From NCBI GenBank assembly GCA_021732945.1, contig JAKFWB010000457.1, positions 1-14,819 of the forward strand: DNA of 14,819 bases, in the 5' to 3' direction. Source of the DNA: Porphyrobacter sp. (GTDB lineage: Bacteria; Pseudomonadota; Alphaproteobacteria; Sphingomonadales; Sphingomonadaceae). Positions within the stretch are counted from its first letter, which is position 1. Each line of letters opens with the position of its first letter. Made by a program: the position numbers and the translations under genes. Below are positions 425-13,070 of this stretch, piece after piece. The notes below the pieces were generated by a model, which saw nothing but the letters and a program-made list of their open reading frames with translations, made no database searches and had not been told where the DNA came from.

Positions 425-1699
425 ATGACAATGCGCCGGGTCGCGCCGCGAAATCCCTCTGTGCGTACGGCGTTTCCTCTGGATGGCGCGCCGTTTGCCT
501 TATCGTCAGCCGATCCCGTGCTGCTCGATGTCACGCGCCTGATTGCGTTGCGCTGGTCTGGGCGCCAGCCCACCGGCATTGACCGGGTTGCCTTGGCCTA
601 TCTGCGGCATTTCCGCCAACGTGCGCTGGCGGTGGTGCAACACTGCGGGATTATCCGCATCTTGCCGCAGCCACAGAGCGAGGATTTGTTCGCCTTGCTC
701 GACGCCCCACAGCGCAACCCGCGTGCGCGGTTGACGCGGGCGCTTTCTGCGCCACTGGTTCGTGGTTCAGCTGCTCGCGAGGCTCAGGCTGGCCGGGCCT
801 ATGTCAATGTCGGGCACACCGATTTCGACCTTCCGGTCCACCATAACTGGGTGCGGCGGCAGGGCCTGCGCGCTTTTTATCTGCTGCATGACCTGATCCC
901 GATCCTGCACCCCGAATTTTCGCGCCCCCCGGCCGTCGCCCGCCATCTGGGCCGGGTGCGCGGTGCGGCGGCGCACGGGGCAGGCATCATCGTTACAAGC
1001 GCGTCGGTAGAGGCTGAGCTTTGCACCTTTGCCGCAGCCCAAGGCATGTCGCTCCCCCAGCTGGTGACAGCGCATCTGGCGGGCGCGGAGCTTCGTGCGG
1101 CACCGGCCGCCGCCATGGTGACGCCGTCGCAGCCCTTTTTCCTCTGCCTCGGCACGATCGAGCCGCGGAAGAACCACCGCTTGCTTTTGGAGGTATGGCA
1201 GCGCCTGGCCGCGTCACTGGGGGCTGCCATGCCGCGCCTGATCATTGCCGGGCAAACCGGGCCGATGACTGGCGATCTGCTCGGCCCGCTGGCCACTGCG
1301 CCTGCCCTGCGCGCGCATGTCGAGCATCGCCCGGCGTGCAGCGATGACGAGCTGGCGCAACTGCTGCACCACGCCGCTGCACTTTTGGTGCCGAGCCTGG
1401 CAGAGGGTTTTGGCCTGCCATTTGTTGAAGCCCTGCAGGCAGGCATCAAGGTGATTGCCAGCGATTTGCCTGTGTTTCGAGAATTGGGGCAGGGTGCGGC
1501 GCAGTTGCTTGATCCGCGCGACGCTGCGATATGGGAACAAGCGATCAGCGAGGCCGCCAGCGGTAGCGATACGGGACGGCGCAAGTTGCCGGGCTATATT
1601 GCTCCGTCATGGATCAATCACTTTGCAGTGGTCGATCGCTTCATCGCCAGCCCGACCTTGCCAGCGCCATCTTGCCGTGAAAGAGAAATTGCCGCGTGA
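425..1699 (+). CDS. Family 4 (GT-B) glycosyltransferase, capsule locus
   Basis: This 424-residue protein probably transfers a sugar from a nucleotide sugar to a growing glycan at the cytoplasmic face of the inner membrane. The N-terminal domain begins with LLDVTRLI (33-40) and PTGIDRV (49-55), a form common in polysaccharide-locus transferases. A YLLHDLIPI stretch follows at about 152-160. The C-terminal donor-binding domain starts at FLCLGTIEPRKNH (239-251) and carries the EX7E motif, E327 and E335, in EGFGLPFVE. The TGA overlaps the GTG of kpsE by four bases (GTGA), so translation is probably coupled. The start is uncertain: ATG 425, ATG 431 and GTG 461 are all in frame and none has a good ribosome site. 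The first 30 residues are low-complexity and may not be translated. Family assignment is strong; donor and acceptor are unknown. Confidence 0.9.
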   Translation: MTMRRVAPRNPSVRTAFPLDGAPFALSSADPVLLDVTRLIALRWSGRQPTGIDRVALAYLRHFRQRALAVVQHCGIIRILPQPQSEDLFALLDAPQRNPRARLTRALSAPLVRGSAAREAQAGRAYVNVGHTDFDLPVHHNWVRRQGLRAFYLLHDLIPILHPEFSRPPAVARHLGRVRGAAAHGAGIIVTSASVEAELCTFAAAQGMSLPQLVTAHLAGAELRAAPAAAMVTPSQPFFLCLGTIEPRKNHRLLLEVWQRLAASLGAAMPRLIIAGQTGPMTGDLLGPLATAPALRAHVEHRPACSDDELAQLLHHAAALLVPSLAEGFGLPFVEALQAGIKVIASDLPVFRELGQGAAQLLDPRDAAIWEQAISEAASGSDTGRRKLPGYIAPSWINHFAVVDRFIASPTLPAPSCREREIAA

Positions 1700-2787
1700 T
1701 CAGCCGTTTGAAATCAACTGCGGGCCTTGCCCTTTTGCTGGTGATCGTGCCGACGTTGCTGGCGATCGTCTATTACGGCCTGCTGGCTGAGGACGTCTAT
1801 GTGTCCGAAGCGCGGATCGTGGTTCGCAACCCGACGCAAGGGCCGCGCTCACCGCTTGATGCCGAGCTCGATCAAACCGGGTTTGGCGCGGCAAATGAAG
1901 GCAACAACACGGTCATCGCCTATCTGCAATCGCGCGCCGCGATCAGCGAAACCAATGGCGACGGCAAGCTCAAGGTAGCTTACGCCGATCCAGAGCTGTT
2001 CTGGTTCGACCGTTTTGGCCTGTTCGGGACAAGTGACGAAGAATTCTATCGCTACTTTCAGGACAAGCTCGAAGTCGAGGAAGGGGCGACGACACAGGTC
2101 CTGACGATCAGTGTGCGGGCCTATAATCCCAAGCAGGCGCAGACGATCAATGCCCGGCTGGTCAATCAGGCGGAAATGCTGGTGAACAGCCTGTCGGAAC
2201 GATCGCAGGCCGATCTCATCGCCATTGCCGAAGCCGAGGTGGAAGAATCGGCGCAGAAGGCGCGCAAGGCCGCGGTGGAGCTGGCGCGTTATCGCAACAC
2301 CAGCGGGATCGTCGACCCGGTGCAGGAATCCGAAGTCGGCTTGCAAATGATCTCGAAGCTGCAGGACGAATTGATTTCAGCCCAGACGCGGCTGCGACAG
2401 TTGCAAACCTATACGCCTGATGCCTCGCAGATACCGTTCCTGCGCACCCAGGTGCGCGATTTGCAGCGCGAGATCGAGTCTGCGCGCCGCAATCTGACTG
2501 GCGGGCAATCCTCGCTGTCGTCAGCACTGGCCCGGTATCAGGAGCTTCAGGTGGATGTCGAGTTTGCCGAAAAGCAGCTTGCCGCCACCCGCGCCGGCTT
2601 GCAGGAAGCCCGCGCCGAGGCGCGCCGCAAGCAGGCCTACCTGGATAGGGTCGCCGCGCCCAGTCTGCCTGACTACCCGGTTGAACCGCGCCGCATCCGC
2701 AGCATCTTTGCCGCAATTGCGCTGGGCCTGCTGGCTTGGGGTGTGCTGTCGATGCTGGTGATTGGCGTGCGCGAGCACCGCGACTGA
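1696..2787 (+). CDS. kpsE: Capsule export inner-membrane/periplasmic protein (KpsE/BexC/CtrB family)
   Basis: This 363-residue protein has the layout of polysaccharide co-polymerase/adaptor proteins of ABC-type capsule exporters, which bridge the KpsMT transporter and the outer-membrane channel. There is one membrane helix near the N-terminus (about 9-28) and one near the C-terminus (about 338-357). Between them lies a large periplasmic region with a long, charged, heptad-like stretch (about 170-315) that should form coiled coil. Family-typical sequences are VYVSEARIVVRNP after the first helix, PEYPV-like PDYPVEPRRIR just before the second, and the terminal VREHRD. The GTG start overlaps the preceding stop, and GAAAGAGAAA lies just upstream as a plausible ribosome site. 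Its TGA shares one base with the kpsM ATG. It belongs to the same operon as kpsM and kpsT. Confidence 0.9.
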   Translation: MISRLKSTAGLALLLVIVPTLLAIVYYGLLAEDVYVSEARIVVRNPTQGPRSPLDAELDQTGFGAANEGNNTVIAYLQSRAAISETNGDGKLKVAYADPELFWFDRFGLFGTSDEEFYRYFQDKLEVEEGATTQVLTISVRAYNPKQAQTINARLVNQAEMLVNSLSERSQADLIAIAEAEVEESAQKARKAAVELARYRNTSGIVDPVQESEVGLQMISKLQDELISAQTRLRQLQTYTPDASQIPFLRTQVRDLQREIESARRNLTGGQSSLSSALARYQELQVDVEFAEKQLAATRAGLQEARAEARRKQAYLDRVAAPSLPDYPVEPRRIRSIFAAIALGLLAWGVLSMLVIGVREHRD

Positions 2788-3593
2788 TGGCTAGCACCGC
2801 GCCCGCCGATCAGCCAACCATTTGGCATTCGCTGCACATTGCGCGGCGCGTGATCGGCGCGCTGCTGCGGCGCGAGATGCTGACGCGCTATGGTCGGCAC
2901 AATATTGGTTTCCTGTGGCTGTTTGTCGAACCGATGATCTTCACCATCGGGGTGACGATCCTGTGGACCGCGACCAAATCCGTCCATGGCAGCGATCTGC
3001 CGATCTAATCCTTCGCGCTGACCGGGTATTCCAGCGTGCTGCTGTGGCGCAACATGCCGGGGCGCTGCATCGGCGCGTTGCAGAACAATCTGGCGCTGAT
3101 GTATCACCGCAACATTCAGGTCGGTGATATCTATGTGGCGCGGCTGATGATCGAATTTGGCGGGGCGACGATCTCCTTTGCCTCGCTCGCCGTGCTGTTC
3201 ATCGCGATCGAATGGATGGAGCCGCCGGAGGATTTTCTCAGAGTGGCCGCTGGCTGGTTGCTGCTGGCGTGGTTCGGCGGCGCGCTGGCAATGATGCTGG
3301 GCGCGGCGTCGCATATGAGCGAGCTGGTGGACAAGCTGTGGCACCCGGCATCCTACCTGCTGTTTCCGCTATCGGGCGCGGCCTTCATCGTCGCGGCCCT
3401 GCCCCCGTTTGCGCAGGATATCGTGCTGTGGATCCCGACGGTGCACGGGATCGAATATCTGCGCGAAGGCTTTTTCGGCACCCGCGCGCGGGCGATCTAT
3501 GATCTGGGTTACATCATCCCGTTCAACCTTGTTCTGACGCTGATCGCCTTGATCGCGGTGCGTTACGTATCGCGCCGGGTGGTGCCGGGATGA
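2787..3593 (+). pseudogene. kpsM: Capsule ABC exporter permease KpsM, interrupted by an in-frame TAA
   Basis: This is the membrane permease of the capsule ABC exporter. The first 73 codons give a normal N-terminus, including LLRREMLTRYGRHNIGFLW and the first membrane helix (EPMIFTIGVTILW). Codon 74 is TAA (3006-3008). The same frame then continues without shift into SFALTGYSSVLLWRNMPGRC and on through several membrane helices to TGA at 3591-3593. The full span of 268 codons plus the stop matches the family length of about 260-270. The defect is therefore a single nonsense codon and not a frameshift or decay. A restart at GTG 3036 or ATG 3054 would make a product of about 180 residues lacking the cytoplasmic N-terminus and first helix. 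Spacing to its neighbours is intact: one base is shared with kpsE and four with kpsT. A sequencing error, a recent mutation or stop readthrough are all possible. Confidence 0.88.
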
Positions 3594-4288
3594 TCCGGGT
3601 GCGCAATCTCAAGAAGGTCTACCAGACCCGCTTTGGCGAGAATCTGGTTTTCGAAGACCTCAACTTCGATCTCGCGATGGGGGAGCGGCTCGGGATTCTC
3701 GGCCGCAACGGGGCGGGCAAATCCACGCTGGTGCGGCTTATCAGCGGGGCCGAGCGCCCGACCGAAGGCACGATTGAAAGCGACATTTCCATTTCCTGGC
3801 CGCTGGCATTTTCGGGCGCGTTTCAGCATCAGCTGACCGGGATAGACAATATCCGCTTCATCAGCCGCATTTATGATCAGGACTTTGATCGCAACCTCGC
3901 CTTCGTTGAAGAGTTTGCCGAGCTTGGCCCTTACCTGCGCGAACCGGTGATGACCTATTCATCGGGCATGCGCGCGCGGCTGGCGTTTGCGATTTCGATG
4001 ATCATCGAGTTCGAGTGCTTCCTGATCGACGAAATCAGCGCAGTCGGTGATGCGCGCTTTCACGATCGCTGCAACTTCGAACTGTTCGAAAAGCGGGCTG
4101 ACCGGGCGATGATCATCATCTCGCACGATGCCGCCTATGTCCGTGATCACTGCAATCGTTGGGGCGTGTTGCACGACGGCAAGCTTGTCCAATATGATGA
4201 TTTTGAAGTCGCATATGCCGATTTCAAGGAATTGATCGGGTGGAAACCGCCTCCTGGCTGGCCCCAGATCCAAGTCTCAACTGCGTAA
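3590..4288 (+). CDS. kpsT: Capsule ABC exporter ATPase KpsT
   Basis: This 232-residue cytoplasmic ATPase should power export through KpsM. All ABC motifs are present: Walker A GRNGAGKST (38-46), a Q-loop region near FQHQLTG (78-84), the signature SSGMR (124-128), Walker B CFLIDE (143-148) and the H-loop His in IIISHD (179). The sequences SISWPLAFSGAFQ and FVEEFAELG are characteristic of the KpsT/BexA/CtrD branch that exports group 2-type capsules, as opposed to the O-antigen Wzt branch, and there is no C-terminal carbohydrate-binding extension. The ATG overlaps the kpsM stop by four bases (ATGA), so its translation may suffer if ribosomes stop at the internal kpsM TAA. It is slightly longer than E. 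coli KpsT, with an extra Pro- and Trp-containing tail. Confidence 0.95.
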   Translation: MIRVRNLKKVYQTRFGENLVFEDLNFDLAMGERLGILGRNGAGKSTLVRLISGAERPTEGTIESDISISWPLAFSGAFQHQLTGIDNIRFISRIYDQDFDRNLAFVEEFAELGPYLREPVMTYSSGMRARLAFAISMIIEFECFLIDEISAVGDARFHDRCNFELFEKRADRAMIIISHDAAYVRDHCNRWGVLHDGKLVQYDDFEVAYADFKELIGWKPPPGWPQIQVSTA

Positions 4289-4301: not shown

Positions 4302-5210
4302 ATGATGAAAAATCTCTTGAATAGGCTAGGCTTTGCCTCTCAATCGCCGGTAACCGCGCTGCCCCCTCCGCCCGTCCTGCGCGAAGTGACGGTTTCAGAC
4401 GAGTCAACGCCCGAACCCACGCTTTGGGCGCCAGTCTCGCAGGCCTGCACTCAGGCGCAGATGGAGGAGCCGCATTACACCTATTGGTGCAATCAGATCC
4501 GTGAAGAACCACGCAATCACCGCAAGCAATGGGAGTTCTGCTACATCCTTCAGGCGCTCAAGTCCGAAGGAATGCTCGAAGCCGGGCGAACGGCGCTTGG
4601 CTTTGGCGTGGGTCTGGAGCCTTTGGCGGCGATATTTGCCAGGAGCGGGGTGAAAGTCCTGGCAACGGATCTGGAGCCCGAAGGCGCGCATGATGCCGGC
4701 TGGGTCAGCACGGCGCAACATGCGCACAACAAGGCCGCGCTCAACGAACGCGACATTTGCGATCCCGACCTATTTGAACAGATGGTCGATTTTCGCTTCA
4801 TGGATATGAACGCCATCGATCCCGATTTGGCCGGGCAGTTTGATTTCGTATGGTCAGCTTGTGCCTTCGAACATCTTGGCTCGATTATGCATGGACTGGA
4901 ATTCGTGGTGAACTCCGTAAAGTGCCTCAAGCCTGGCGGGGTGGCGGTTCACACGACCGAATTGAATTGCTCGTCCGACAGCAAGACGCTCGACAATGCG
5001 GGCACCGTCTTGTTCCGCAAGCGGGATTTCCTGCTGCTCGAACGCCGGTTGAAACTGATGGGGGCTGAACTGGAGTTCAACTTCAACCTCGGTCGCCAAC
5101 CGCTGGACCTCTATGTCGACACGCCGCCGTTCAAGCCGGATGCCCACCTGAAATTGCAGATCCTGCAGTGGGCGGTGACATCGTTCGGCCTGATCATCCG
5201 CAAGCTGTGA
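4302..5210 (+). CDS. Class I SAM-dependent methyltransferase, capsule locus
   Basis: This 302-residue protein has a Rossmann-type SAM-binding core. Motif I is GFGVGLE (100-106), followed by an acidic residue at the end of strand 2 in VLATDLEP (119-126). Later come DFVWSACAFEHLGS (181-194), resembling the motif II/post region of class I enzymes, and a KPGG turn (210-213). The first 90 residues lie outside the core. They start with a low-complexity, Pro-rich stretch and then HYTYWCNQIREEP, which may bind the acceptor. It sits 13 bases after kpsT and 13 bases before the next glycosyltransferase, so it probably methylates a sugar or glycan end of the exported polymer; this is inference from context. 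Two adjacent ATGs (4302 and 4305) are possible starts. N- versus O-methylation cannot be told from sequence. Confidence 0.82.
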   Translation: MMKNLLNRLGFASQSPVTALPPPPVLREVTVSDESTPEPTLWAPVSQACTQAQMEEPHYTYWCNQIREEPRNHRKQWEFCYILQALKSEGMLEAGRTALGFGVGLEPLAAIFARSGVKVLATDLEPEGAHDAGWVSTAQHAHNKAALNERDICDPDLFEQMVDFRFMDMNAIDPDLAGQFDFVWSACAFEHLGSIMHGLEFVVNSVKCLKPGGVAVHTTELNCSSDSKTLDNAGTVLFRKRDFLLLERRLKLMGAELEFNFNLGRQPLDLYVDTPPFKPDAHLKLQILQWAVTSFGLIIRKL

Positions 5211-5223: not shown

Positions 5224-6534
5224 TTGAGCAGAATCCTGATCGACGGGTACAATCTCGGCCTTGAGAAGGGCACCGGGGTGGCGACCTATGCGCGCAATCT
5301 CAGTTACGAGATTGCCAATCTCGGGCACGAGGTTGACGTGCTCTATGGCAACCGGGCGAGCGCGACCCGCAATGATCTGCTGCGCGAAATCTACTTCTTC
5401 GATTCCAGCGTCGATGATCGGGACCGGTGGCTGGAAATCCTCGATCAGGCCTATCGGGCGATCGAGGGGCCATTCACCTTCAGGGCCAAGCAGATTCCGG
5501 TGACGGGGCGCGTGATCACGCGCACCTTCCAGTCGCGCCTGCCGAAGTTCGATCGGCTCTACAATGCGCCCGATCTGTTCACGCGGGCGCAGAGTGCATT
5601 CAAGCTGTGGAAGCGCCCATCGACGATCCGCATGCCGCACAAGCCTGATCTTGCGCACTGGACCTATCCGATCCCGCTGCACGTGACGGGGCGACCAAAT
5701 ATCTACACGCTGCACGACGTCGTGCCGTTGCGGCTGCCTTACACGACGCTGGATCACAAGCGCCGCTATCTCCAGCTCTTGCAAACGCTTGACCAGAAGG
5801 CAGCGCATTTCGTCACCGTGTCGGAAAATTCCAAGCGCGATCTGGTCGATCTGGTTGGCATTGCGCCCGAACGTATCACCAACACCTACCAATCGGTCAG
5901 CATCCCCGACAAATATCTCAACAAGCCAGAGGATCAGGTCGCGCGCGAAGTCGAAGGGCTGACCGGGTTCGACTACAAGGGTTACTTCCTGTTCTGGGGC
6001 TCGCTCGAACCCAAGAAGAACATCGGCCGGTTGATCGAAGCCTATCTGTCAGCGCAGGTGGAAACCCCGCTGGTGATTGTCGGCGCGCAGGCGTGGAAAT
6101 CGGAACAGGAACTGAAGCTGCTTGGCGATACTGAAACCGTCTATGGCAGCTTTGAACGCCGCCGGGGTGCGCGCAAACGGATCATCCAGATGCCCTATGC
6201 CCCCTTCCCGCTGCTGGTCAGCCTGATCCGCGGGGCCAAGGCGGCGATGTTCCCTTCGCTTTATGAAGGTTTTGGCCTGCCGGTGCTGGAAGCAATGCTG
6301 CTGGGCACGCCCGTGATCTGCTCCAACACGTCATCCCTCCCCGAAGTTGCGGGCGATGCCGCGCTGATGGTGGACCCCTATGACACGCAGGCGATCACCC
6401 TGGCGATCCGCGCGCTCGACGCTGATGTGGGCTTGCGCGATCACCACATCGCCTTGGGGCACCAACAGGCTGCCCGTTATAGCCCCGAAATTTATCGCGA
6501 ACGCTTGAAAGATGTCTATGACCGCTTCCTGTGA
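5224..6534 (+). CDS. Family 4 (GT-B) glycosyltransferase, capsule locus
   Basis: This 436-residue cytoplasmic transferase probably adds a sugar to the capsule glycan or its lipid-linked primer. The N-terminal acceptor domain opens with [20 protein letters not shown] (4-23), which includes the glycine-rich loop usual for this group, and has [10 protein letters not shown] at 161-170. The C-terminal domain starts at [15 protein letters not shown] (256-270) and has EX7E, E348 and E356, in EGFGLPVLE, then a [10 protein letters not shown] segment. A long insert around residues 45-140 with many charged residues separates the first strand from the rest of the N-terminal domain. The start is TTG with a good ribosome site. 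It lies 13 bases after the methyltransferase and about 25 bases before the export lipoprotein gene. Donor sugar and linkage cannot be read from the sequence. Confidence 0.92.
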
Positions 6535-6559
6535 TGCCCCGTCGCGCTGGACAGATGCC

Positions 6560-7765
6560 ATGCCCGCCAAAACCCCGTTTGCCCGCCTCAGCCTGATGGG
6601 CAAGGCCGCTGCCATCGCCTTGTGCCTGGGCACGCTGACGGCTTGTTCCAGCCTTGGCAGTGCGGGCCCTTCGACCAGAGCAATTCGCGGCGCGCAGGAA
6701 GATGGGCAGACCTATGCCGATGGCGCTATTCAGGTGCTGCCGCTTGGCGCGGAAGTGGTGGGGGCACTGGCGACCTATGAACGTGCCGCCAGCTTTGCCG
6801 AGCTGTTCGGCGATTCGGGTGTTTCAGCAACCGTCATTGCGCCGGGTGATCTGATCGATATCGCAATCTGGGAAGCGCCACCGGCAGTGTTATTCGGCGC
6901 TGCGCCGTCGGATCAGCAATTGGGCGGCAATATTGATCTGGCCACCAATTCACCGATCCCCCGCCAGCAGGTTGATGAAGCCGGGATGATCGGCATCCCC
7001 TTTGTCGGGCGGATCAAGGTGCTGGGTCTGCGGCCTGAACAGGTCGAGGTGATCATCACCTCCCGGCTGCGGCGGCGCGCCAATGATCCGCAGGCGGTGG
7101 TGCGGCTGGTGCAGAACGAAACCCGCACGGCCACCATCCTCGGCCAAGTGGGGGCCAGCCGCCAGATCGGCCTGTCCGCCCGGGGCGAGCGGCTGCTCGA
7201 CGCGATTGCGGTGGCAGGCGGCACCAGCCAGCCGATCGAGCAGTCCACGGTCCAGATCGCGCGGGGCACACAGCGGGCCATTATGCCGCTGGAACGGGTG
7301 ATCAATGATCCGCAGCAGAATGTCCGCCTCAGCCCCGGCGATGTGGTGACGGTACAGCACCAGCCGTTCAGCTTCGTCGCGCTGGGCGCGGTGGCACGCA
7401 GTGCCGAAGTGCCGTTCGAAGGGGCCGGGATCACCCTGGCTGAGGCTTTGGGCCGGGCTGGGGGGCTGAATGATCGGCGCGCCGACATCAAGGGCGTGTT
7501 CGTGTTCCGGCTGGAAGATCGCGCCGCCTTGCCCGCTTTGGCGAACCCGGACGTGCGCACCACCAACGAGGGCAAGGTGCCGGTGGTCTACACCCTGCGC
7601 ATGACCGACGCGGCAAGCCTGTTCACCATGCAGGACTTCCGCATGCGCGATGGCGACGTGTTGTATATCTCCACCGCACCGGGGGTGGAGCTGGAGCGCT
7701 TCCTGCAAACCATCTCAAGCACCGCGTTCTCGATCGTGGCGACCGGCAACGCGATCAGCCAATAA
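6560..7765 (+). CDS. Outer-membrane polysaccharide export lipoprotein (Wza/BexD/CtrA type)
   Basis: This 401-residue lipoprotein should form the outer-membrane channel for the capsule. A lipoprotein signal peptide is clear: basic start, hydrophobic core (KAAAIALCLG) and lipobox LTAC with the lipidated Cys at 29. A poly-export domain follows at about 90-185 (VIAPGDLIDIAIWE, then DEAGMIGIPFVGRIKVLG). Next come two SLBB-like domains, at about 190-265 (TATILGQVGASRQIGLS) and 271-370 (FVALGAVARSAEVPF). Length is close to BexD/CtrA and much shorter than E. coli KpsD. The start at 6560 is preferred because it begins the signal peptide and has GGA eight bases upstream. An in-frame ATG at 6512 would overlap the previous gene and add 16 polar residues before the signal. 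It is the last gene of the operon; the convergent cytidylyltransferase gene ends only 10 bases away. Confidence 0.92.
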   Translation: MPAKTPFARLSLMGKAAAIALCLGTLTACSSLGSAGPSTRAIRGAQEDGQTYADGAIQVLPLGAEVVGALATYERAASFAELFGDSGVSATVIAPGDLIDIAIWEAPPAVLFGAAPSDQQLGGNIDLATNSPIPRQQVDEAGMIGIPFVGRIKVLGLRPEQVEVIITSRLRRRANDPQAVVRLVQNETRTATILGQVGASRQIGLSARGERLLDAIAVAGGTSQPIEQSTVQIARGTQRAIMPLERVINDPQQNVRLSPGDVVTVQHQPFSFVALGAVARSAEVPFEGAGITLAEALGRAGGLNDRRADIKGVFVFRLEDRAALPALANPDVRTTNEGKVPVVYTLRMTDAASLFTMQDFRMRDGDVLYISTAPGVELERFLQTISSTAFSIVATGNAISQ

Positions 7766-7775
7766 GCGCGGTGGG

Positions 7776-8525
7776 TCAGGCGGCGAAGCGGCGACCAGCG
7801 CCGAAGCCGAGTGCCATCGGTGCTTCGACCTCCGCCATGGCGTGCATGCGCGGATCATCGACATCGATCCACCATTCGCCGGTGACGTCGACCGTATCGG
7901 CAGTGCCGCGATCCGCCAGGCGCTGCATGCCTTCCGACAGACTGCCCGCCGCGCCATCGGCGACCGCTTCGGCAATCGCGTCGGCCAGATCGGGCGTGGC
8001 GATGAAGGCACCGCAATCAACTGCGTCATAGCGCGTCAGATGCTTGCCGATTTGCGCGATCGTGCCATTGGCGCGTCGGCGCACCCAGGTGGCATCATCG
8101 GGATCAATCGCCGGGGCATCAAGGTTCCGATCAATCGCCAGCGCCGCCCCGCCAGTCCGCTGCATCTGCTGCACAAGCGTTTGGAGCAGTCCGGCGGAGA
8201 ACATGTGGTCGGCCATCATCAGCAGATAATTGCCTTCGATCCGCGCCGCCCCGGCCAGCACTGAATGGCCATTGGGGCGTGAACAATCGCGGATTCGGCA
8301 CGGCTCAAGCGTCACCCCGGTGCGGTAGGCAATGCCCGGCAGCCGCATCTCGATCTCGCTGGCACGATGCCCGGTCACGACGACCGCATGGCGAATTCCC
8401 GCGCTGCCTGCTTGCCGCACCGACCATTCCAGCAAGCTCACGCCGGCCACGCCCACCAGCGGCTTGGGCGCACCAAGCGCGGCAATACGGCTGCCAAATC
8501 CGGCGGCGAGGATCAGGGCGTTCAT
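7776..8525 (-). CDS. Nucleotidyltransferase, probable CTP:inositol-1-phosphate cytidylyltransferase
   Basis: This 249-residue cytoplasmic enzyme has the sugar-phosphate nucleotidyltransferase fold. It shows the NTP-binding loop LILAAGFGSR (4-13) with PKPL (20-23), then NGHSVLAG (85-92), MMADHMF (103-109), IDRN (131-134), IGK (159-161) and YDAVDCGAF (166-174). The series ADH, DR, IGK and YD-VD-G-F resembles the cytidylyltransferase domain of archaeal and thermophile IPCT/DIPPS proteins more than GalU- or RmlA-type enzymes; this is from memory of those families, not an alignment. The gene lies 84 bases downstream of inositol-phosphate synthase on the same strand. That suggests the enzyme activates inositol 1-phosphate to CDP-inositol. 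Other phospho-alcohol substrates, such as phosphocholine, are possible. No strong ribosome site precedes the ATG. Its stop is 10 bases from the convergent export lipoprotein gene. Confidence 0.8.
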   Translation of the reverse strand: MNALILAAGFGSRIAALGAPKPLVGVAGVSLLEWSVRQAGSAGIRHAVVVTGHRASEIEMRLPGIAYRTGVTLEPCRIRDCSRPNGHSVLAGAARIEGNYLLMMADHMFSAGLLQTLVQQMQRTGGAALAIDRNLDAPAIDPDDATWVRRRANGTIAQIGKHLTRYDAVDCGAFIATPDLADAIAEAVADGAAGSLSEGMQRLADRGTADTVDVTGEWWIDVDDPRMHAMAEVEAPMALGFGAGRRFAA

Positions 8526-8609
8526 GGTGCGACTCGTGAGCGATGGGTTGCGGGGAGACGGCGACGTATTCGGTTCAGTGGGCGGTTTTTGACCTCGTTC
8601 TTCAATCGG

Positions 8610-9710
8610 TTATTCAGCGGCATCCAGTTGAAGTGCGGCGCGTGCGTCGAGCAAGGTGACGGCGGCGTCTTCGCTCATCTGTTGCACCGGGTGTTTGCAG
8701 TAATAGGCGCTTTCAGCAATCAACGCGCCGCTTTCACCGCGATCACGCGCAAGCTTGCAGAAGCGGATGGCATCCATCGCGCAGGCCGCGGCATTGGGGC
8801 TGTCTTCGACTGAAAGGCGCAGTTCGATGTTCATCGGTACCCCGCCCCACTGTTCGGCTTCCAGCCGCACGAATGCGATCTTGTTGTCGTTCTGCCAGGG
8901 CACATATTCCGACGGGCCGATGCGGATATTCTCATCCGCTAGCCGTTCCGCCAGCGCTGCCTGTACGGCCTCGGTCTTGGAGTGCTTCTTGGACGTCAGG
9001 CGGTTGCGATCCAGCATATTCATGAAATCGGTATTGCCGCCGGTATTCAGCTGGTAGGTGCGCTGGACTGTCACGCCGCGTGATGAAAACAGGCTGGACA
9101 AGGTGCGATGAATGATCGTCGCCCCCACCTGCGCCTTGATGTCATCGCCCACAATCGGCAGGCCGCGCTGACGGAAACGGGCTTCCCACACGGGATCGCT
9201 GGCGACGAATACCGGGATGGCATTGACCACGCCGACCCCCGCTTCGAGCGCGCATTCCATGTAGAAGGCGCTGGCGTCCTGCGATCCTACGGGAAGGAAA
9301 TTGATCAGCACATCGACCCGTTCAGCCCGCAATGCCGCGACGATATCTTGCTGGCTGGGTTCAGGCTGATCGGCCAGCAGAAAGCCGCGATCGCCCGCTT
9401 CGGTCATGTGATCTGCCACACCGTCGAGGATGCGGCCCATAATCACTGTCGCAGCGCTGGGGGGGATGTTGGGTTCGAACACCGTGGTGTTGTTCGGACC
9501 GGCAAAAATCGCCTGCGTGAGCGGCTGCCCCACCTTGCGGCGATCGACATCAATGCCGAGCACAAAGTCCACATCACAAACGCGGTATGGCCCGACGGTC
9601 TCATGAATAAGACCACCGGTCGATTCTGAGCGGCGGTAGAAAGCACCGCCTTGCACCAGCGAACTGGCACAATTACCAACACCTACGATTGCGACCCGTA
9701 CGCGATTCAT
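8610..9710 (-). CDS. ino1: myo-inositol-phosphate synthase (Ino1, actinobacterial/archaeal type)
   Basis: This 366-residue enzyme should convert glucose 6-phosphate to myo-inositol phosphate using bound NAD. It begins with the dinucleotide-binding motif VAIVGVGNCASSL (6-18). Family landmarks follow: INFLPVGSQ (136-144), GDDIKAQVGAT (188-198) with the presumed catalytic Lys192, NTGGNTDFMNML (222-233), SKKHSKT (240-246) and DNKIAF (275-280). Length matches the short bacterial form (M. tuberculosis Ino1 is about 367) and not the 500-residue eukaryotic form. The ATG at 9710 is chosen because AAAGGGAA lies just upstream and the protein begins with the NAD-binding strand. A start at 9734 would add eight residues and cover that ribosome site. 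It is the first gene of a likely two-gene unit with the cytidylyltransferase and is read away from the long divergent spacer. Confidence 0.95.
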   Translation of the reverse strand: MNRVRVAIVGVGNCASSLVQGGAFYRRSESTGGLIHETVGPYRVCDVDFVLGIDVDRRKVGQPLTQAIFAGPNNTTVFEPNIPPSAATVIMGRILDGVADHMTEAGDRGFLLADQPEPSQQDIVAALRAERVDVLINFLPVGSQDASAFYMECALEAGVGVVNAIPVFVASDPVWEARFRQRGLPIVGDDIKAQVGATIIHRTLSSLFSSRGVTVQRTYQLNTGGNTDFMNMLDRNRLTSKKHSKTEAVQAALAERLADENIRIGPSEYVPWQNDNKIAFVRLEAEQWGGVPMNIELRLSVEDSPNAAACAMDAIRFCKLARDRGESGALIAESAYYCKHPVQQMSEDAAVTLLDARAALQLDAAE

Positions 9711-9759
9711 CGGGTTCCCTTTGTTGCTATGCACAATCCATCACTGCAAACCAGACACC

Positions 9760-9765
9760 TGTCAA
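9760..9765 (-). promoter_or_regulatory. candidate -35 box (TTGACA) for ino1
   Basis: On the minus strand a perfect TTGACA lies about 50 bases before the ino1 start. At the usual 17-18-base distance the sequence is GATGGA or ATGGAT, which are poor -10 boxes, so the call is tentative. The 11-base palindrome lies 10 bases further upstream, a typical place for an activator site. Confidence 0.3.
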
Positions 9766-9775
9766 CTGTAACGAA

Positions 9776-9786
9776 TTGTGTCACAA
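9776..9786. promoter_or_regulatory. palindrome TTGTGTCACAA, possible operator
   Basis: TTGTG and CACAA form perfect arms around a central T. It sits between the divergent ino1 and glycosyltransferase genes and just upstream of the candidate ino1 -35 box. No regulator gene is visible in the window, and an 11-base palindrome can arise by chance. Confidence 0.25.
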
Positions 9787-9885
9787 AACCCTTTTCGCTT
9801 GGGAAAATTTCCTTCAGTGCCCGGTCAATTGGCTGGAAACTGAACGCGCCCGACAGGGCAAAAACAACAAAAACTCGGACGTTGA

Positions 9886-9911
9886 AATGGGGGAATGGGG
9901 GAATGGGAATG
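9886..9911. repeat. short tandem repeat of AATGGGGG
   Basis: Two perfect copies of AATGGGGG (9886-9893 and 9894-9901) are followed by shortened copies AATGGG and AATG. The array lies in the divergent spacer, 60-140 bases upstream of the possible glycosyltransferase starts. Arrays of this kind can slip in copy number. Confidence 0.7.
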
Positions 9912-10021
9912 CAATCTTGTCATATCCCAAAAGCCTTTCGCGCCTGTCAGGAACCTGAACAAGATGCGGCGAAGTGGCTGAAATTCCCGATGAGGCGGGC
10001 CAGCATCGCACTGCGGCGCAG

Positions 10022-11233
10022 ATGATCGCGGACCGACACGGTCGCCGCCCGCATGTCGCGCTCGATTGCCGCTATATCGGGTCGCGGCCGAGCGGGATCG
10101 GCGAGGTGGTGGCGGCATTGGCCCAGCACTTGCCGCAATTGGCGCCTGAATACGATTTCACCTTCCTGCGAGCCGCGCGCCATCCCCATTCCTTGAGCAA
10201 TGCTGCCAATGTGCGCGAGTTGGTGGTGCGCAGCCCGGCCAATGGACCGGTGACATTGCTGCACCTGCCGTTGGCCGTGGATCTGACCGGCGTCGACCTG
10301 TTCCATGCCCCGGCCAATATTCTGCCCGGCGGGCTAACTATGCCCGCGATCACCACCGTGCATGATGTGATGTGGCTGACCCATCCCAAATGGTGCAATC
10401 CCCGGCCTTGGGGGCAGATCGAGCGACATTTTTATGGCCACGGCATCCGCCGCGCACTGGCCCGGTCGGCGCTGGTCGCGACAGTCAGCGAGGCAAGCCG
10501 TGCGGCTATTGCTGCCATTGCGCCCGAAGCGGCTGATCGCCTTGTCGTGACCCGTTCAGGCGTGTCGGAGGATTTTCGCCCCGCCCCGCGTGATGAAGCT
10601 GCCCTTGCGCAGATTGGTGTGCCGCCGGGGCGGCGTTACTGCCTCGTGGTGGGGCAAAGCGCACCCTACAAGAACCACGAGGGCGCGATCCGCGCCTTTG
10701 CGCTGGCCTTTGGCGATAGGCCCGGCATCGATCTGGTGATGGTCCAGCGGCGCGGCGATGGCGGCACGGCGGCGCGGCATCTGGCTGACGCGCTGGGCTT
10801 GGCCGGGCAAGTCCATATGCTCCCGCCGGTTGATCGCGCGGCGCTGGTGCAGCTTTATGCCGGGGCTGCCGCATTGTTGCACCCATCCTTCATCGAAGGC
10901 TTCGGCAACCCGCTGGCTGAGGCGATGGCATGCGGTTGCCCGGTGATTACCAGCGATTGTTCAGCGATGCCCGAAGTGACCGGCGGCGCGGCGTTGCTGG
11001 CCGATCCGCATGATCATGGCGCGATCGCCGCAGCGCTGCGGCAGGTGGTGGACAATCCCGCGCTGGCTGATGATCTGCGCCAGCGCGGGCTGGAACGCGC
11101 CGCCGCGCCGAACGCACGCCGGACCCGACCCAGCGATAGGGCAAGGATACCCCCCAGCACCACCACTTCAAACAGGAAATACCAGTGCGGCCGGCCCGCC
11201 AGCATCGCCGCACCCACCGCAAGCGTGCGATAA
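10022..11233 (+). CDS. Family 4 (GT-B) glycosyltransferase with an altered C-terminus
   Basis: The protein has 403 residues from ATG 10022, or 419 from GTG 9974; neither start has a clear ribosome site. The N-terminal domain begins at VALDCRYIGSRPSGIGEVV (12-30) and has ITTVHDVMWL (110-119). The donor domain starts at CLVVGQSAPYKNHEG (207-221) and has EX7E, E292 and E300, in EGFGNPLAE, followed by SAMPEVTGGAALLADP. Homology-like sequence stops at LRQRGLERAAA (352-362). The remaining 40 or so residues (PNARRTRPSD onward) are the antisense of the convergent CDP-alcohol phosphotransferase and do not look like a glycosyltransferase end, which normally has a short helix with an aromatic/Trp-Glu pattern. 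It may glycosylate an inositol lipid or the capsule; context suggests the former only weakly. It is probably still folded, since the catalytic parts are complete. Confidence 0.85.
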   Translation: MIADRHGRRPHVALDCRYIGSRPSGIGEVVAALAQHLPQLAPEYDFTFLRAARHPHSLSNAANVRELVVRSPANGPVTLLHLPLAVDLTGVDLFHAPANILPGGLTMPAITTVHDVMWLTHPKWCNPRPWGQIERHFYGHGIRRALARSALVATVSEASRAAIAAIAPEAADRLVVTRSGVSEDFRPAPRDEAALAQIGVPPGRRYCLVVGQSAPYKNHEGAIRAFALAFGDRPGIDLVMVQRRGDGGTAARHLADALGLAGQVHMLPPVDRAALVQLYAGAAALLHPSFIEGFGNPLAEAMACGCPVITSDCSAMPEVTGGAALLADPHDHGAIAAALRQVVDNPALADDLRQRGLERAAAPNARRTRPSDRARIPPSTTTSNRKYQCGRPASIAAPTASVR

Positions 11234-11937
11234 TTGGCGCTGAGCAGCGTCATCCCTCCCAGCCATCTGCTTCCCTGCGCACGCATCGCTTCGCGCAAGG
11301 CATCGCGCCGGGAAGGGTCGTGCAAAGCGGCGGTGAGAGCGGCGCTGAGCGGCACGATCCAACCGGTCAGCCACAGGTAATAGGCAACGAAAGGATGCCT
11401 GCGTCCCTTCGCCGTGGTCACCGGCGCCTCGCTCGCCATCCAGCCGGTGCCATAGACCGCAAACTGATATTGTCGCCGCGCGCCTTCGTAATGCGCTGCC
11501 TGTATCACCCGGCTCGCCCCCGCTGCCCACAGCAACGCCCAGCCCCAGCCGCCAATCTGTGCCGCGGCGATGATCCCCATCGTGACATAGAGCACGATGT
11601 GGCCGGCATAGTCGCAGATCCCGTCCACCAGCTCGCCATGCGCGGAACTGCGAGCCGTCAGCCGCGCCAGATCGCCATCCGCGCCGTCGAGCACATGCCA
11701 GCTCATATGCAGCGCCAGTCCGGCGGCCACGCCCCATGGCCAGCTCAGCTGGGCATAGGCGAGCGTCGCCAGCATGATCGCCCCGGCCCCTGCCACCGAC
11801 ACCATGTTGGGGGTGATCGCAGTGGCGGCCAGCCGCCGCGCCAGCCGCCACGATAGCGGGTGATAGACGCGCGCGTTGAGCCAGTCTTCGAGCTCTGCCG
11901 GCCGCTGCGGGCGATCAGGAGGGGCAGGTTGCGTCAC
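11014..11937 (-). CDS. CDP-alcohol phosphotransferase (membrane), inositol module
   Basis: This integral membrane enzyme has 307 residues as read. It carries the full CDP-alcohol phosphotransferase signature D-x2-DG-x2-AR-x8-G-x3-D-x3-D at 84-109 (D84, D87, A91-R92, G101, D105, D109), which binds the metal ions and the CDP-alcohol. ITPNMVSVAG (41-50) precedes it, as is usual for the family. Several hydrophobic helices follow, plus a conserved-looking EGARRQYQ (151-158). The start is GTG. The C-terminal 33 residues or so (after FGAAA, near 11098) are antisense to the glycosyltransferase and very Ser/Arg/Ala-rich, so the natural end is probably lost or extended. Substrates are not certain: CDP-inositol or CDP-diacylglycerol as donor are both reasonable given the neighbouring inositol genes. 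It is divergent from the next CDP-alcohol phosphotransferase gene, with about 100 bases between them. Confidence 0.85.
   Translation of the reverse strand: MTQPAPPDRPQRPAELEDWLNARVYHPLSWRLARRLAATAITPNMVSVAGAGAIMLATLAYAQLSWPWGVAAGLALHMSWHVLDGADGDLARLTARSSAHGELVDGICDYAGHIVLYVTMGIIAAAQIGGWGWALLWAAGASRVIQAAHYEGARRQYQFAVYGTGWMASEAPVTTAKGRRHPFVAYYLWLTGWIVPLSAALTAALHDPSRRDALREAMRAQGSRWLGGMTLLSANYRTLAVGAAMLAGRPHWYFLFEVVVLGGILALSLGRVRRAFGAAARSSPRWRRSSASAGLSTTCRSAAAIAP
11098..11233. other. tail-to-tail junction with reciprocal antisense C-termini
   Basis: The two convergent genes overlap by 220 bases (11014-11233). To the left of about 11098 the sequence looks like genuine glycosyltransferase; to the right it looks like genuine CDP-alcohol phosphotransferase. 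Neither gene has a stop near this point, so each reads into the other's antisense. This is the expected footprint of a deletion that removed both original stop codons. Confidence 0.55.
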
Positions 11938-12030
11938 GCATCACCGGTTGCGGGCCAGGGCGGAGTTGCCGTGCCTTGCGAGGGCCTTGCATAAGCGCAG
12001 CCGGTTTACGGCGCAAACCCGCGCGGTTAC

Positions 12031-12035
12031 GAGGA
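12031..12035 (+). promoter_or_regulatory. Shine-Dalgarno GAGGA that decides a start
   Basis: GAGGA lies three bases before ATG 12039. The spacing is short but clearly better than anything upstream of the in-frame TTG at 11976, so ATG 12039 is taken as the start of the DIPPS-like gene. Confidence 0.5.
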
Positions 12036-12038
12036 ACC

Positions 12039-13070
12039 ATGCAAGCCCCTGCCAGCTTCCGCTTTGCTTCGGCCCGCAGCGCCAACCGCCTTGTGGCGGG
12101 CGTGCCCGCTGCCGCCCGGCTCGGACGGGCGTGGGGTGCCGCTTTTCCGGGCGTGCCGCTGATCCTTATGCTTGGGGATTCGGGGCCGCTTGACCCGGTG
12201 ACGCATGCGGAGATCAAGCGGCTGGCACCGGGGGTGGTGGTGGCGATTGGTGCCGATGCCGCCCATGAACCGTCCCTGCCGGGTGAGCTGCTGCCCGGTG
12301 CAGACGACATCGCTGCGATGCTGGCAGGGGCCATGCCAGTCCCGCCGCCGCCTGCTGATCCCATCGCCGCTCTGGATCAAGCCGGGCGCGGCATCATTCG
12401 CGCCACCGCCAAGCCGGGTGACGGTATCGTCTCGCGCCATCTCAACCGCCCGGTGTCGCAAGCTGTATCGACCCTGCTGCTGCGCTGGGCGTGGATCCGT
12501 CCGGGCCATGCGACCGTGCTGACCGCGCTGGTCGCGCTGCTGATGCTGGCCTGCTTGCTGACCGGGACCATCGCCGGCCTGATCGCTGGGGCGGTGCTGT
12601 TCCAAGCGGCGTCGGTGGTGGACGGGATCGACGGTGAAATCGCGCGCGCCACCTTCCGCACATCAGCCAGCGGCGCGGCGTGGGACAGCGGGGTGGATGC
12701 GGCGACCAACCTCGGCTTTCTGGCCGGGGTGATCGCCAATCTCTGGCTGCGGGGAGAGGCGGGCACGGCGACGATTGGCCTTGTGGGCCTAGGCACGCTG
12801 GCGCTTGGCATGGGGCTGCTGGGCTTGCACGCCCGTGCGCGGGGCGAACCGCTCCATTTCGACGGGGCCAAGCAGATGCTGGCCACGCGCGAGACGGCCC
12901 TGACCCGCTGGCTGCGCTATCTGACGATGCGCGACTTCTATTGCCTGTTTCTGGCGGCGATGATTGCCGCCGGGCTCACCACCGCGGCGCTGATCATCTT
13001 CGCGCTGGCAGCGGCTGGCTGGCTGGTGACAGTGTTCGCGCTTTTGTGGCGCGCCCGCGCCTCAGCTTAG
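12039..13070 (+). CDS. CDP-alcohol phosphotransferase resembling di-myo-inositol-phosphate phosphate synthase
   Basis: This 343-residue membrane enzyme is the likely user of CDP-inositol. Its C-terminal two-thirds has KPGDGIVSRHLNRPVS (125-140), which resembles the linker-plus-first-helix sequence of DIPPS domains. The complete CDP-alcohol phosphotransferase signature is at 195-220 (D195, D198, A202-R203, G212, D216, D220) within VVDGIDGEIARATFRTSASG. About five to six hydrophobic helices cover the rest. Residues 1-115 form a soluble part with LILMLGDSGP and PGVVVAIGAD, which I cannot place. It sits where fused enzymes carry the cytidylyltransferase domain but is far too short and lacks the LAAGxGxR loop. 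The known DIPPS reaction joins CDP-inositol and inositol 1-phosphate; another acceptor, including a lipid, is possible. Its TAG overlaps the convergent fabI stop by nine bases. Confidence 0.83.
   Translation: MQAPASFRFASARSANRLVAGVPAAARLGRAWGAAFPGVPLILMLGDSGPLDPVTHAEIKRLAPGVVVAIGADAAHEPSLPGELLPGADDIAAMLAGAMPVPPPPADPIAALDQAGRGIIRATAKPGDGIVSRHLNRPVSQAVSTLLLRWAWIRPGHATVLTALVALLMLACLLTGTIAGLIAGAVLFQAASVVDGIDGEIARATFRTSASGAAWDSGVDAATNLGFLAGVIANLWLRGEAGTATIGLVGLGTLALGMGLLGLHARARGEPLHFDGAKQMLATRETALTRWLRYLTMRDFYCLFLAAMIAAGLTTAALIIFALAAAGWLVTVFALLWRARASA

Follow-up and report, generated by a model that had tools for sequence, protein, structure and literature searches.

Gene content of the locus

We examined a set of genes predicted to make and use CDP-inositol, and the Kps-type glycan export cluster beside it, in a 14,819-nucleotide stretch of Porphyrobacter sp. 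DNA (GenBank JAKFWB010000457.1; the whole stretch is the window). The window is contig C11 of a 3.1-Mb metagenome-assembled genome (MAG; 594 contigs, 74% complete). The first gene of the inositol set encodes a stand-alone CTP:inositol-1-phosphate cytidylyltransferase-like protein of 249 amino acids (aa) (IPCT, 7776..8525, minus strand), which carries an NTP transferase domain (PF12804, 3e-13) and has Erythrobacter and Porphyrobacter records as its nearest named relatives. On the same strand lies INO1 (8610..9734), an inositol-3-phosphate (1L-myo-inositol-1-phosphate) synthase of 374 aa from a GTG start or 366 aa from the ATG at 9710 (PF01658, 4.5e-35). These are followed by the GT4 glycosyltransferase GT_C (9974..11233, plus strand; PF00534, 6e-28; probable start ATG 10022), by CAPT1 (11014..11937, minus strand; PF01066, 3e-8), a 307-aa CDP-alcohol phosphotransferase without a soluble domain, and by CAPT2 (11976..13070, plus strand; PF01066, 8e-6), a DIPPS/AF2299-like CDP-alcohol phosphotransferase with a degenerate cytidylyltransferase-like N-domain; both PF01066 matches exceed the gathering score. 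The 364-aa CAPT2 frame opens with TTG and contains a probable start at ATG 12039, which gives the 343-residue frame of an earlier note on this DNA.

That note had named these five genes as a module bounded by 7776..13070. Profile and open reading frame (ORF) scans found all five in place, but the system itself reaches left to about position 425, and the note overlooked both the conserved union with a Kps exporter immediately to the left of that interval and the lack of KpsC/KpsS described below. The Kps cluster is continuous on the plus strand. It comprises the GT4 glycosyltransferase GT_A (425..1699; PF00534, 1e-17); a KpsE/BexC/CtrB-type polysaccharide co-polymerase (1696..2787; TIGR01010, 290 bits, E 3e-86, below the curated cut-off of 437.5); a KpsM-type ATP-binding cassette (ABC) permease (2736..3593; NF050053, 6e-6 on the 90-aa first piece) interrupted by a TAA codon; a KpsT/TagH-type ABC ATPase (3590..4288; NCBIfam PRK13545, 3e-35); a methyltransferase (MT, 4302..5210; PF08241, 1.5e-5) whose presence in the cluster is optional (8 of the 97 loci compared have a match); the GT4 glycosyltransferase GT_B (5224..6534, TTG start; PF00534, 1.4e-21); and a KpsD/Wza-type outer-membrane polysaccharide export protein (6512..7765; PF02563, 1.2e-17; SLBB_2, 1e-20; PRK15078, 124 bits), whose gene ends 10 bp from the 3' end of IPCT.

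Predicted formation and use of CDP-inositol

The best Protein Data Bank matches of the window's IPCT were the A. fulgidus IPCT structures 2xme (3e-17) and 4mnd (1e-16). The family profile likewise ranked 2xme (121 bits) and 4mnd (118 bits) above 4jd0 (97 bits), which we take to be the T. maritima IPCT, and LicC (1jyk, 53 bits). The nucleotidyltransferase is nearer the solved IPCTs than the phosphocholine cytidylyltransferase LicC and is predicted to form CDP-inositol; the kinship with phosphocholine enzymes that the earlier note had named as fatal to its proposal is not what the profile returned. INO1 belongs to the inositol-phosphate synthase family (120.5 bits against PF01658, gathering score 27) and scored 387.7 bits against the mycothiol-type model TIGR03450, short of its curated cut-off of 638. 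The model for fused bifunctional IPCT/DIPPS proteins (NF041135, curated score 580) gave 98 bits for IPCT and 79 bits for CAPT2, which are separate genes.

To follow the genes across relatives we assembled 80 named loci (the best 80 of 172 encoding an IPCT relative) and 24 from other genomes, which gave 104 loci with IPCT, 102 of them distinct; the window was left out, and the flank fetched around IPCT was at most 10 kb. In 99 of the 102 distinct loci no more than 600 nt separate INO1 from IPCT, in keeping with the clustering in relatives that the earlier note expected. Among 61 genomes (the window's, 36 others of the genus and 24 from other families of the order), a close IPCT occurred in 17, all of them among the 19 with INO1. 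Because of this proximity and co-occurrence, the cluster is not a chance assembly. Its presence in the genus is patchy (8/37 genomes, and 9/24 outside). Databases assign the IPCT family the names choline kinase and phosphocholine cytidylyltransferase family, and the enzymes share a superfamily, both of which would suit an enzyme that activates phosphocholine or a sugar phosphate. Set against the bit scores for the IPCT structures and the nearly constant neighborhood of INO1, such an activity is extremely improbable. The labels look like misannotation to judge from the profiles, which suggests that sphingomonad proteins carrying them are inositol enzymes.

Both CAPT1 and CAPT2 contain the complete CDP-alcohol motif DxxDGxxAR(x8)GxxxDxxxD, and in the tree they form two separate clades, with CAPT1 in a clade of its own, so the two CDP-alcohol enzymes of the earlier note are distinct. 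The CAPT1 profile matched AF2299 best (50 bits), then CEPT1 (35 bits), and the AlphaFold2 model of the protein had a pLDDT (predicted local distance difference test) of 88. The transferase domain of CAPT2 scored highest against the A. fulgidus IPCT-DIPPS (117 bits), followed by AF2299 (115 bits); the tree placed it with 4mnd, AF2299, F43 and F48 at 94/92, just below the set level, and did not separate DIPPS from AF2299 as the nearest. Taken together, the IPCT, INO1 and CDP-alcohol families support the earlier view of a putative CDP-inositol module in a sphingomonad.

The resemblance of CAPT2 to DIPPS could point to a compatible solute of the di-myo-inositol-phosphate (DIP) type, as in thermophiles, and the carriers do include E. 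cryptus and E. tepidarius, presumably moderate thermophiles. Many carriers are, however, Novosphingobium, which are mostly mesophilic; the scanned ORFs of the window include no phosphatase for the phosphorylated intermediate; and a solute pathway would account neither for the union with Kps genes and glycosyltransferases nor for CAPT1, which would be left without a role. A DIP-type product is very improbable on these grounds, and a different product, as the earlier note supposed, was judged more likely. Thermophily was also set aside as the cause of the patchy presence, as carriers include E. dokdonensis and many Novosphingobium beside E. cryptus and E. tepidarius. The earlier view of IPCT and DIPPS as enzymes known mainly from solute synthesis in thermophiles was not supported. 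A sample of 298 genomes from the window's family, which shares the window's genome with the genus sample, contained IPCT in 41 (at least 186 bits; 16 more genomes with only 91-102-bit matches were excluded). Further, CDP-inositol routes to lipids have already been discussed for hyperthermophiles and Bacteroidota (PMC9246714, PMC10191378), and the idea that lipids are made from CDP-inositol is not a new one. As a separate observation, one locus of the same order (L039:9357-12718) carries a DIP-type set made up of a fused IPCT-CDP-alcohol protein, an inositol-monophosphatase-family gene and INO1.

Conserved union of the inositol and Kps genes

Nine core genes (GT_A, KpsE, KpsM, KpsT, IPCT, INO1, GT_C, CAPT1 and CAPT2) were all present in 21 of the 24 distinct IPCT loci that also encode KpsE and KpsM, and the three loci that fell short (L026/L044, L098/L156 and L119) each stop at a contig end. 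GT_A was found in 24/24 of these loci and GT_C in 22/24, as opposed to 1 of the 78 distinct loci whose fetched flank lacks KpsE. The union is also preserved in a divergent relative from a different genus of the family (locus L159 of genome G096), whose IPCT and CAPT1 are 40% and 31% identical to those of the window. There the genes follow one another on a single strand in the order GT_A, KpsE, KpsM, KpsT, GT_B, KpsD, GT_C, CAPT2, CAPT1, INO1 and IPCT, the optional methyltransferase excepted, an arrangement that is operon-like. In L119, too, INO1 through GT_C lie on one strand as far as the contig end.

The 78 loci without KpsE, many of them from Novosphingobium, retain CAPT1 in 66 cases and CAPT2 or a CAPT2-like gene in 20. 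Such loci are what would be expected if the module made a stand-alone inositol lipid for the bulk membrane, either phosphatidylinositol or an inositol-phosphoryl (dihydro)ceramide, and the Kps cluster were a neighbor whose glycan has another anchor. A lipid consistent with inositol-phosphoryl dihydroceramide has been described in Novosphingobium acidiphilum, in which both Bacteroidetes gene clusters are absent and the genes are still lacking (PMC9246714). The IPCT-INO1-CAPT1 locus of Novosphingobium may make this inositol-type sphingolipid and would then supply candidate genes for it; N. acidiphilum itself was neither in the best 80 of 172 loci nor named among the 120 proteins listed of 2455. 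Loci of the L051 type add an NTP transferase, a CDP-alcohol enzyme and a HAD hydrolase by INO1, as in the alternative cluster of Bacteroidetes. Left unexplained by a stand-alone lipid are the way in which GT_C follows the Kps genes, the one-strand array of L159 and the loss of KpsC/KpsS when the two gene sets are linked, and we regard it as somewhat unlikely. In the Novosphingobium locus itself (L051:4841-8506), the genes adjoining INO1 are a CAPT2-like gene, a second IPCT-like NTP transferase and the HAD hydrolase; related sets occur in L052, L055, L070, L079 and L091.

Absence of KpsC/KpsS where Kps and IPCT are linked

In characterized ABC-dependent capsules, KpsS and KpsC build a 3-deoxy-D-manno-oct-2-ulosonic acid (Kdo) linker on phosphatidylglycerol, and the resulting glycolipid is believed to be the feature that the exporter recognizes (PMC11666461, PMC12220298). 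We scored KpsC/KpsS as present at E<=1e-20 (PF05159). Sixteen genomes of the genus had a KpsE match, eight of them IPCT carriers and eight non-carriers. At this threshold KpsC/KpsS was found in 0/8 of the carriers, seven of which reach 99% completeness or more (the eighth, the window's MAG, is at 74%), and the window's MAG had no PF05159 match; one carrier (G035) had a single partial match (3e-11) on another contig. Non-carriers with a near full-length KpsE encoded KpsC/KpsS in 7/7 cases (Fisher 1.6e-4 against the carriers, shared ancestry ignored). The remaining non-carrier, G031, was left out of the test since its KpsE match spans 42 residues; it too has KpsC/KpsS. Another locus of the genus (L167:6995-8122, genome G027) has INO1 without a close IPCT, and its genome encodes KpsE and KpsC/KpsS elsewhere.

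The family sample extended this pattern. Among its 298 genomes, 80 had KpsE, 66 had KpsC/KpsS and 63 had both. KpsE lay within about 5 kb of IPCT in seven genomes (six at 1.3-1.4 kb, the window at 5 kb), and KpsC/KpsS was found in 0/7 of these as opposed to 63/73 of the other KpsE genomes (Fisher 6e-6, shared ancestry ignored). The 73 include G096, the genome of L159, in which IPCT and KpsE are 9 kb apart and KpsC/KpsS is also absent. When the 13 family genomes with both IPCT and KpsE were divided by linkage, KpsC/KpsS occurred in 0/8 of the linked and 4/5 of the unlinked (present in G313, G326, G328 and G344, absent from G276). Thus, it is linkage, and not IPCT itself, that goes with the loss of KpsC/KpsS. 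Outside the family, two genomes with unlinked IPCT and Kps genes (G040 and G052) both have KpsC/KpsS.

We next considered what lies near KpsE in the 17 family genomes that have it and lack KpsC/KpsS. Eight carry the linked inositol module; three (G177, G213 and G346) have no IPCT, and their KpsE lies 0.7, 5 and 13 kb, respectively, from a CDP-alcohol enzyme that belongs to another group; and six (G071, G074, G146, G247, G276 and G279) have no CDP-alcohol gene within 20 kb, four of which (loci L162, L164, L165 and L166) have a KpsM just 24-26% identical to the window's. CDP-alcohol enzymes within 20 kb of KpsE were found in 6/6 of the linked carriers tested (of 8) and in 0/19 of the KpsC/KpsS genomes tested (of 63), with positions compared by eye. 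This distribution suggests, without proving it, that CDP-alcohol enzymes stand in for KpsC/KpsS. The enzyme of the other group is exemplified by L160:11134-11805, with copies 42% and 56% identical in L161 and L169, all beside Kps genes in genomes without KpsC/KpsS and IPCT matches. We also considered whether the CDP-alcohol genes near Kps loci that lack KpsC/KpsS are simply a ubiquitous homologue of about 200 aa. That homologue, represented by the copy in the window's genome (L002), gave no match to the L160 enzyme among the BLAST matches listed at 1e-3; in the tree the L002 copy joins the L160 group, a join flagged as a meeting of long branches.

A candidate inositol terminus for the exported glycan

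Taking together the gene families, their conserved union, the one-strand array in a divergent relative and the lack of KpsC/KpsS matches where the two halves are linked, we tentatively favor the explanation that the CDP-inositol pathway builds the membrane terminus of a Kps-exported surface glycan, in place of the Kdo-phosphatidylglycerol terminus. We infer the substrates, the acceptor, the order of the sugars and the role of an inositol lipid as the exporter's substrate. INO1 would convert glucose-6-phosphate to 1L-myo-inositol-1-phosphate, which IPCT would activate with CTP to CDP-inositol. CAPT1, CAPT2 or both could then place phosphoinositol on an acceptor in the membrane (diacylglycerol, ceramide or some other lipid alcohol), and one of the two may add a second phosphoinositol. 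GT_C is the candidate transferase for the first sugar on inositol. In NCBIfam its top row is MshA, an inositol-phosphate glycosyltransferase (1e-21, far short of the cut-off), and the leading rows of the L159 copy are MSMEG_0565 (2e-25) and MshA (5e-25). Because GT4 profiles cross-match widely, this resemblance is only a hint to an inositol acceptor. GT_A and GT_B would lengthen the chain, MT may cap it, and KpsM, KpsT, KpsE and KpsD would export the product. With slightly more reserve, we propose that the pathway exemplifies an additional type of lipid terminus on ABC-exported glycans, in which the product of a CDP-alcohol phosphotransferase (here an inositol phospholipid derived from CDP-inositol) takes the place of the Kdo-phosphatidylglycerol that KpsS/KpsC produce. 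Of the 17 family genomes with KpsE and without KpsC/KpsS, 11 have either CDP-alcohol enzymes or the linked inositol module next to their Kps genes; the enzymes fall in distinct clades, and one set comes with the full inositol-activation pathway.

The CDP-alcohol enzymes also allow another acceptor. Lipid-acceptor members of the family characterized so far typically carry 3-4 additional helices at the C-terminus; AF2299 and AfDIPPS, which CAPT2 resembles and which use soluble donors, do not process lipids (PMC4634129). No such helices were apparent in the CAPT1 and CAPT2 models, with secondary structure read by eye and without a membrane-helix predictor. If the rule is valid for these two enzymes, the acceptor of phosphoinositol may be soluble or a glycan, so that CDP-inositol would serve as donor to the growing chain and phosphoinositol would reside in the backbone or a side group of the glycan, by a logic like that of CDP-glycerol in teichoic-like capsules. 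The best NCBIfam rows of KpsT are teichoic-acid exporters, and capsules with poly(glycerol-phosphate) linkers and backbones are known (PMC11666461). This alternative leaves the absence of KpsC/KpsS unexplained, and we consider it improbable. Also counting against it, the capsule polymerases that use CDP-glycerol are not known to belong to this CDP-alcohol phosphotransferase family.

Several further observations, like the missing helices, weigh against an inositol terminus. KpsC/KpsS is likewise missing from nine KpsE genomes in which no IPCT is linked, and six of the nine have no CDP-alcohol gene within 20 kb. The absence of KpsC/KpsS alone therefore proves little, and we rejected it as proof of an inositol anchor. 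One of these genomes, G177, has close relatives of KpsM and KpsT (71/78%), and IPCT, INO1, CAPT1 and CAPT2 are all absent from its 20-kb locus. The status of G326 as 'unlinked' is uncertain, as the MAG is fragmented and its IPCT lies at the end of a contig. No CAPT2 match was found in the whole E. cryptus genome (G034; its locus L044 is the same as L026). The KpsE-less majority of loci (78/102) indicates that the first role of the module need not be in a glycan, the permease gene is interrupted in the window's own MAG, and the chemistry of the pathway is predicted from genes.

Relation to known systems

The window shares with the A. fulgidus IPCT/DIPPS pathway (2xme, 4mnd) an IPCT-like nucleotidyltransferase, a DIPPS-like transferase domain and inositol-phosphate synthase. 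It differs in its separate IPCT, the degenerate and shortened N-domain of CAPT2, the second CDP-alcohol enzyme, the lack of a phosphatase noted above and the junction with glycan export. Jorge et al. 2015 reportedly described a CDP-inositol route to inositol lipids in Rhodothermus marinus. That route has in common with ours CDP-inositol as the proposed head-group donor and differs in organism, while the window adds two CDP-alcohol enzymes, glycosyltransferases and Kps export genes. In actinobacteria, the phosphatidylinositol (PI) mannoside and lipoarabinomannan lipoglycans are PI-anchored; like our proposal, they involve a glycan that GT4 enzymes build up on an inositol phospholipid. Unlike the window, the actinobacterial systems have no Kps exporter, and their PI is made from CDP-diacylglycerol by PIP synthase. 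The alternative inositol-lipid cluster of Bacteroidetes also combines MIPS, an NTP transferase and a CDP-alcohol phosphotransferase (PMC9246714); the scanned ORFs of the window include no HAD hydrolase, which is present in some Novosphingobium loci (e.g., L051), and the window's module is united with Kps genes.

Among capsule systems, the group 2 ABC capsules (KpsMTED plus KpsC/KpsS) have the same KpsE, KpsM, KpsT and KpsD-type exporter with glycosyltransferases, whereas the window has the inositol module and no KpsC/KpsS match. The Vi antigen is also exported by a Kps-like ABC system without KpsS/KpsC homologues and with another lipid anchor, in its case a diacyl-N-acetylhexosamine attached by VexE, where the window has CDP-inositol genes (PMC12220298). 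The anchoring of ABC-exported capsules is described as one conserved Kdo-phosphatidylglycerol terminus, with Vi as the exception (PMC12220298, PMC11666461). If true, an inositol terminus would be another anchoring solution for these capsules and, for Gram-negative bacteria, a rare instance of a glycan anchored by inositol phospholipids. We found no published link between inositol and a Kps capsule anchor in the literature searched, and the word 'inositol' occurs 0 times in PMC12220298.

Integrity of the window's copy and neighboring genes

The kpsM gene of the window has an in-frame TAA at 3006-3008. Its relatives are open and of usual length (frames called in 18 loci, mean 272 aa), and tblastn gave 84% identity over 284 residues in L025 and 84-86% in L043, L045 and L049. 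Furthermore, GT_C and CAPT1, which lie tail to tail, are both out of register with the aligned relatives near position 11,100 (about 11090-11110), in GT_C over the last ~45 residues. A single indel or assembly error in their overlap would explain the loss of register in both. The kpsM stop and the shift near 11,100 may be errors of a fragmented MAG; should they prove genuine, they mark a system in decay in this strain.

Scanning the window for Rfam families and tRNAs gave no matches, nor did a PADLOC scan of four proteins. To the right of the module lie FabI and BrkB, which belong to the surroundings and are outside the system. In another family of the order (L032:3700-12103), IPCT-INO1 is found with CAPT1 and a 460-aa CDP-alcohol enzyme that has a degenerate NTP-transferase half. 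The same locus carries an MMPL exporter and a Polysacc_synt flippase-like gene, possibly a case of an inositol lipid exported without Kps.

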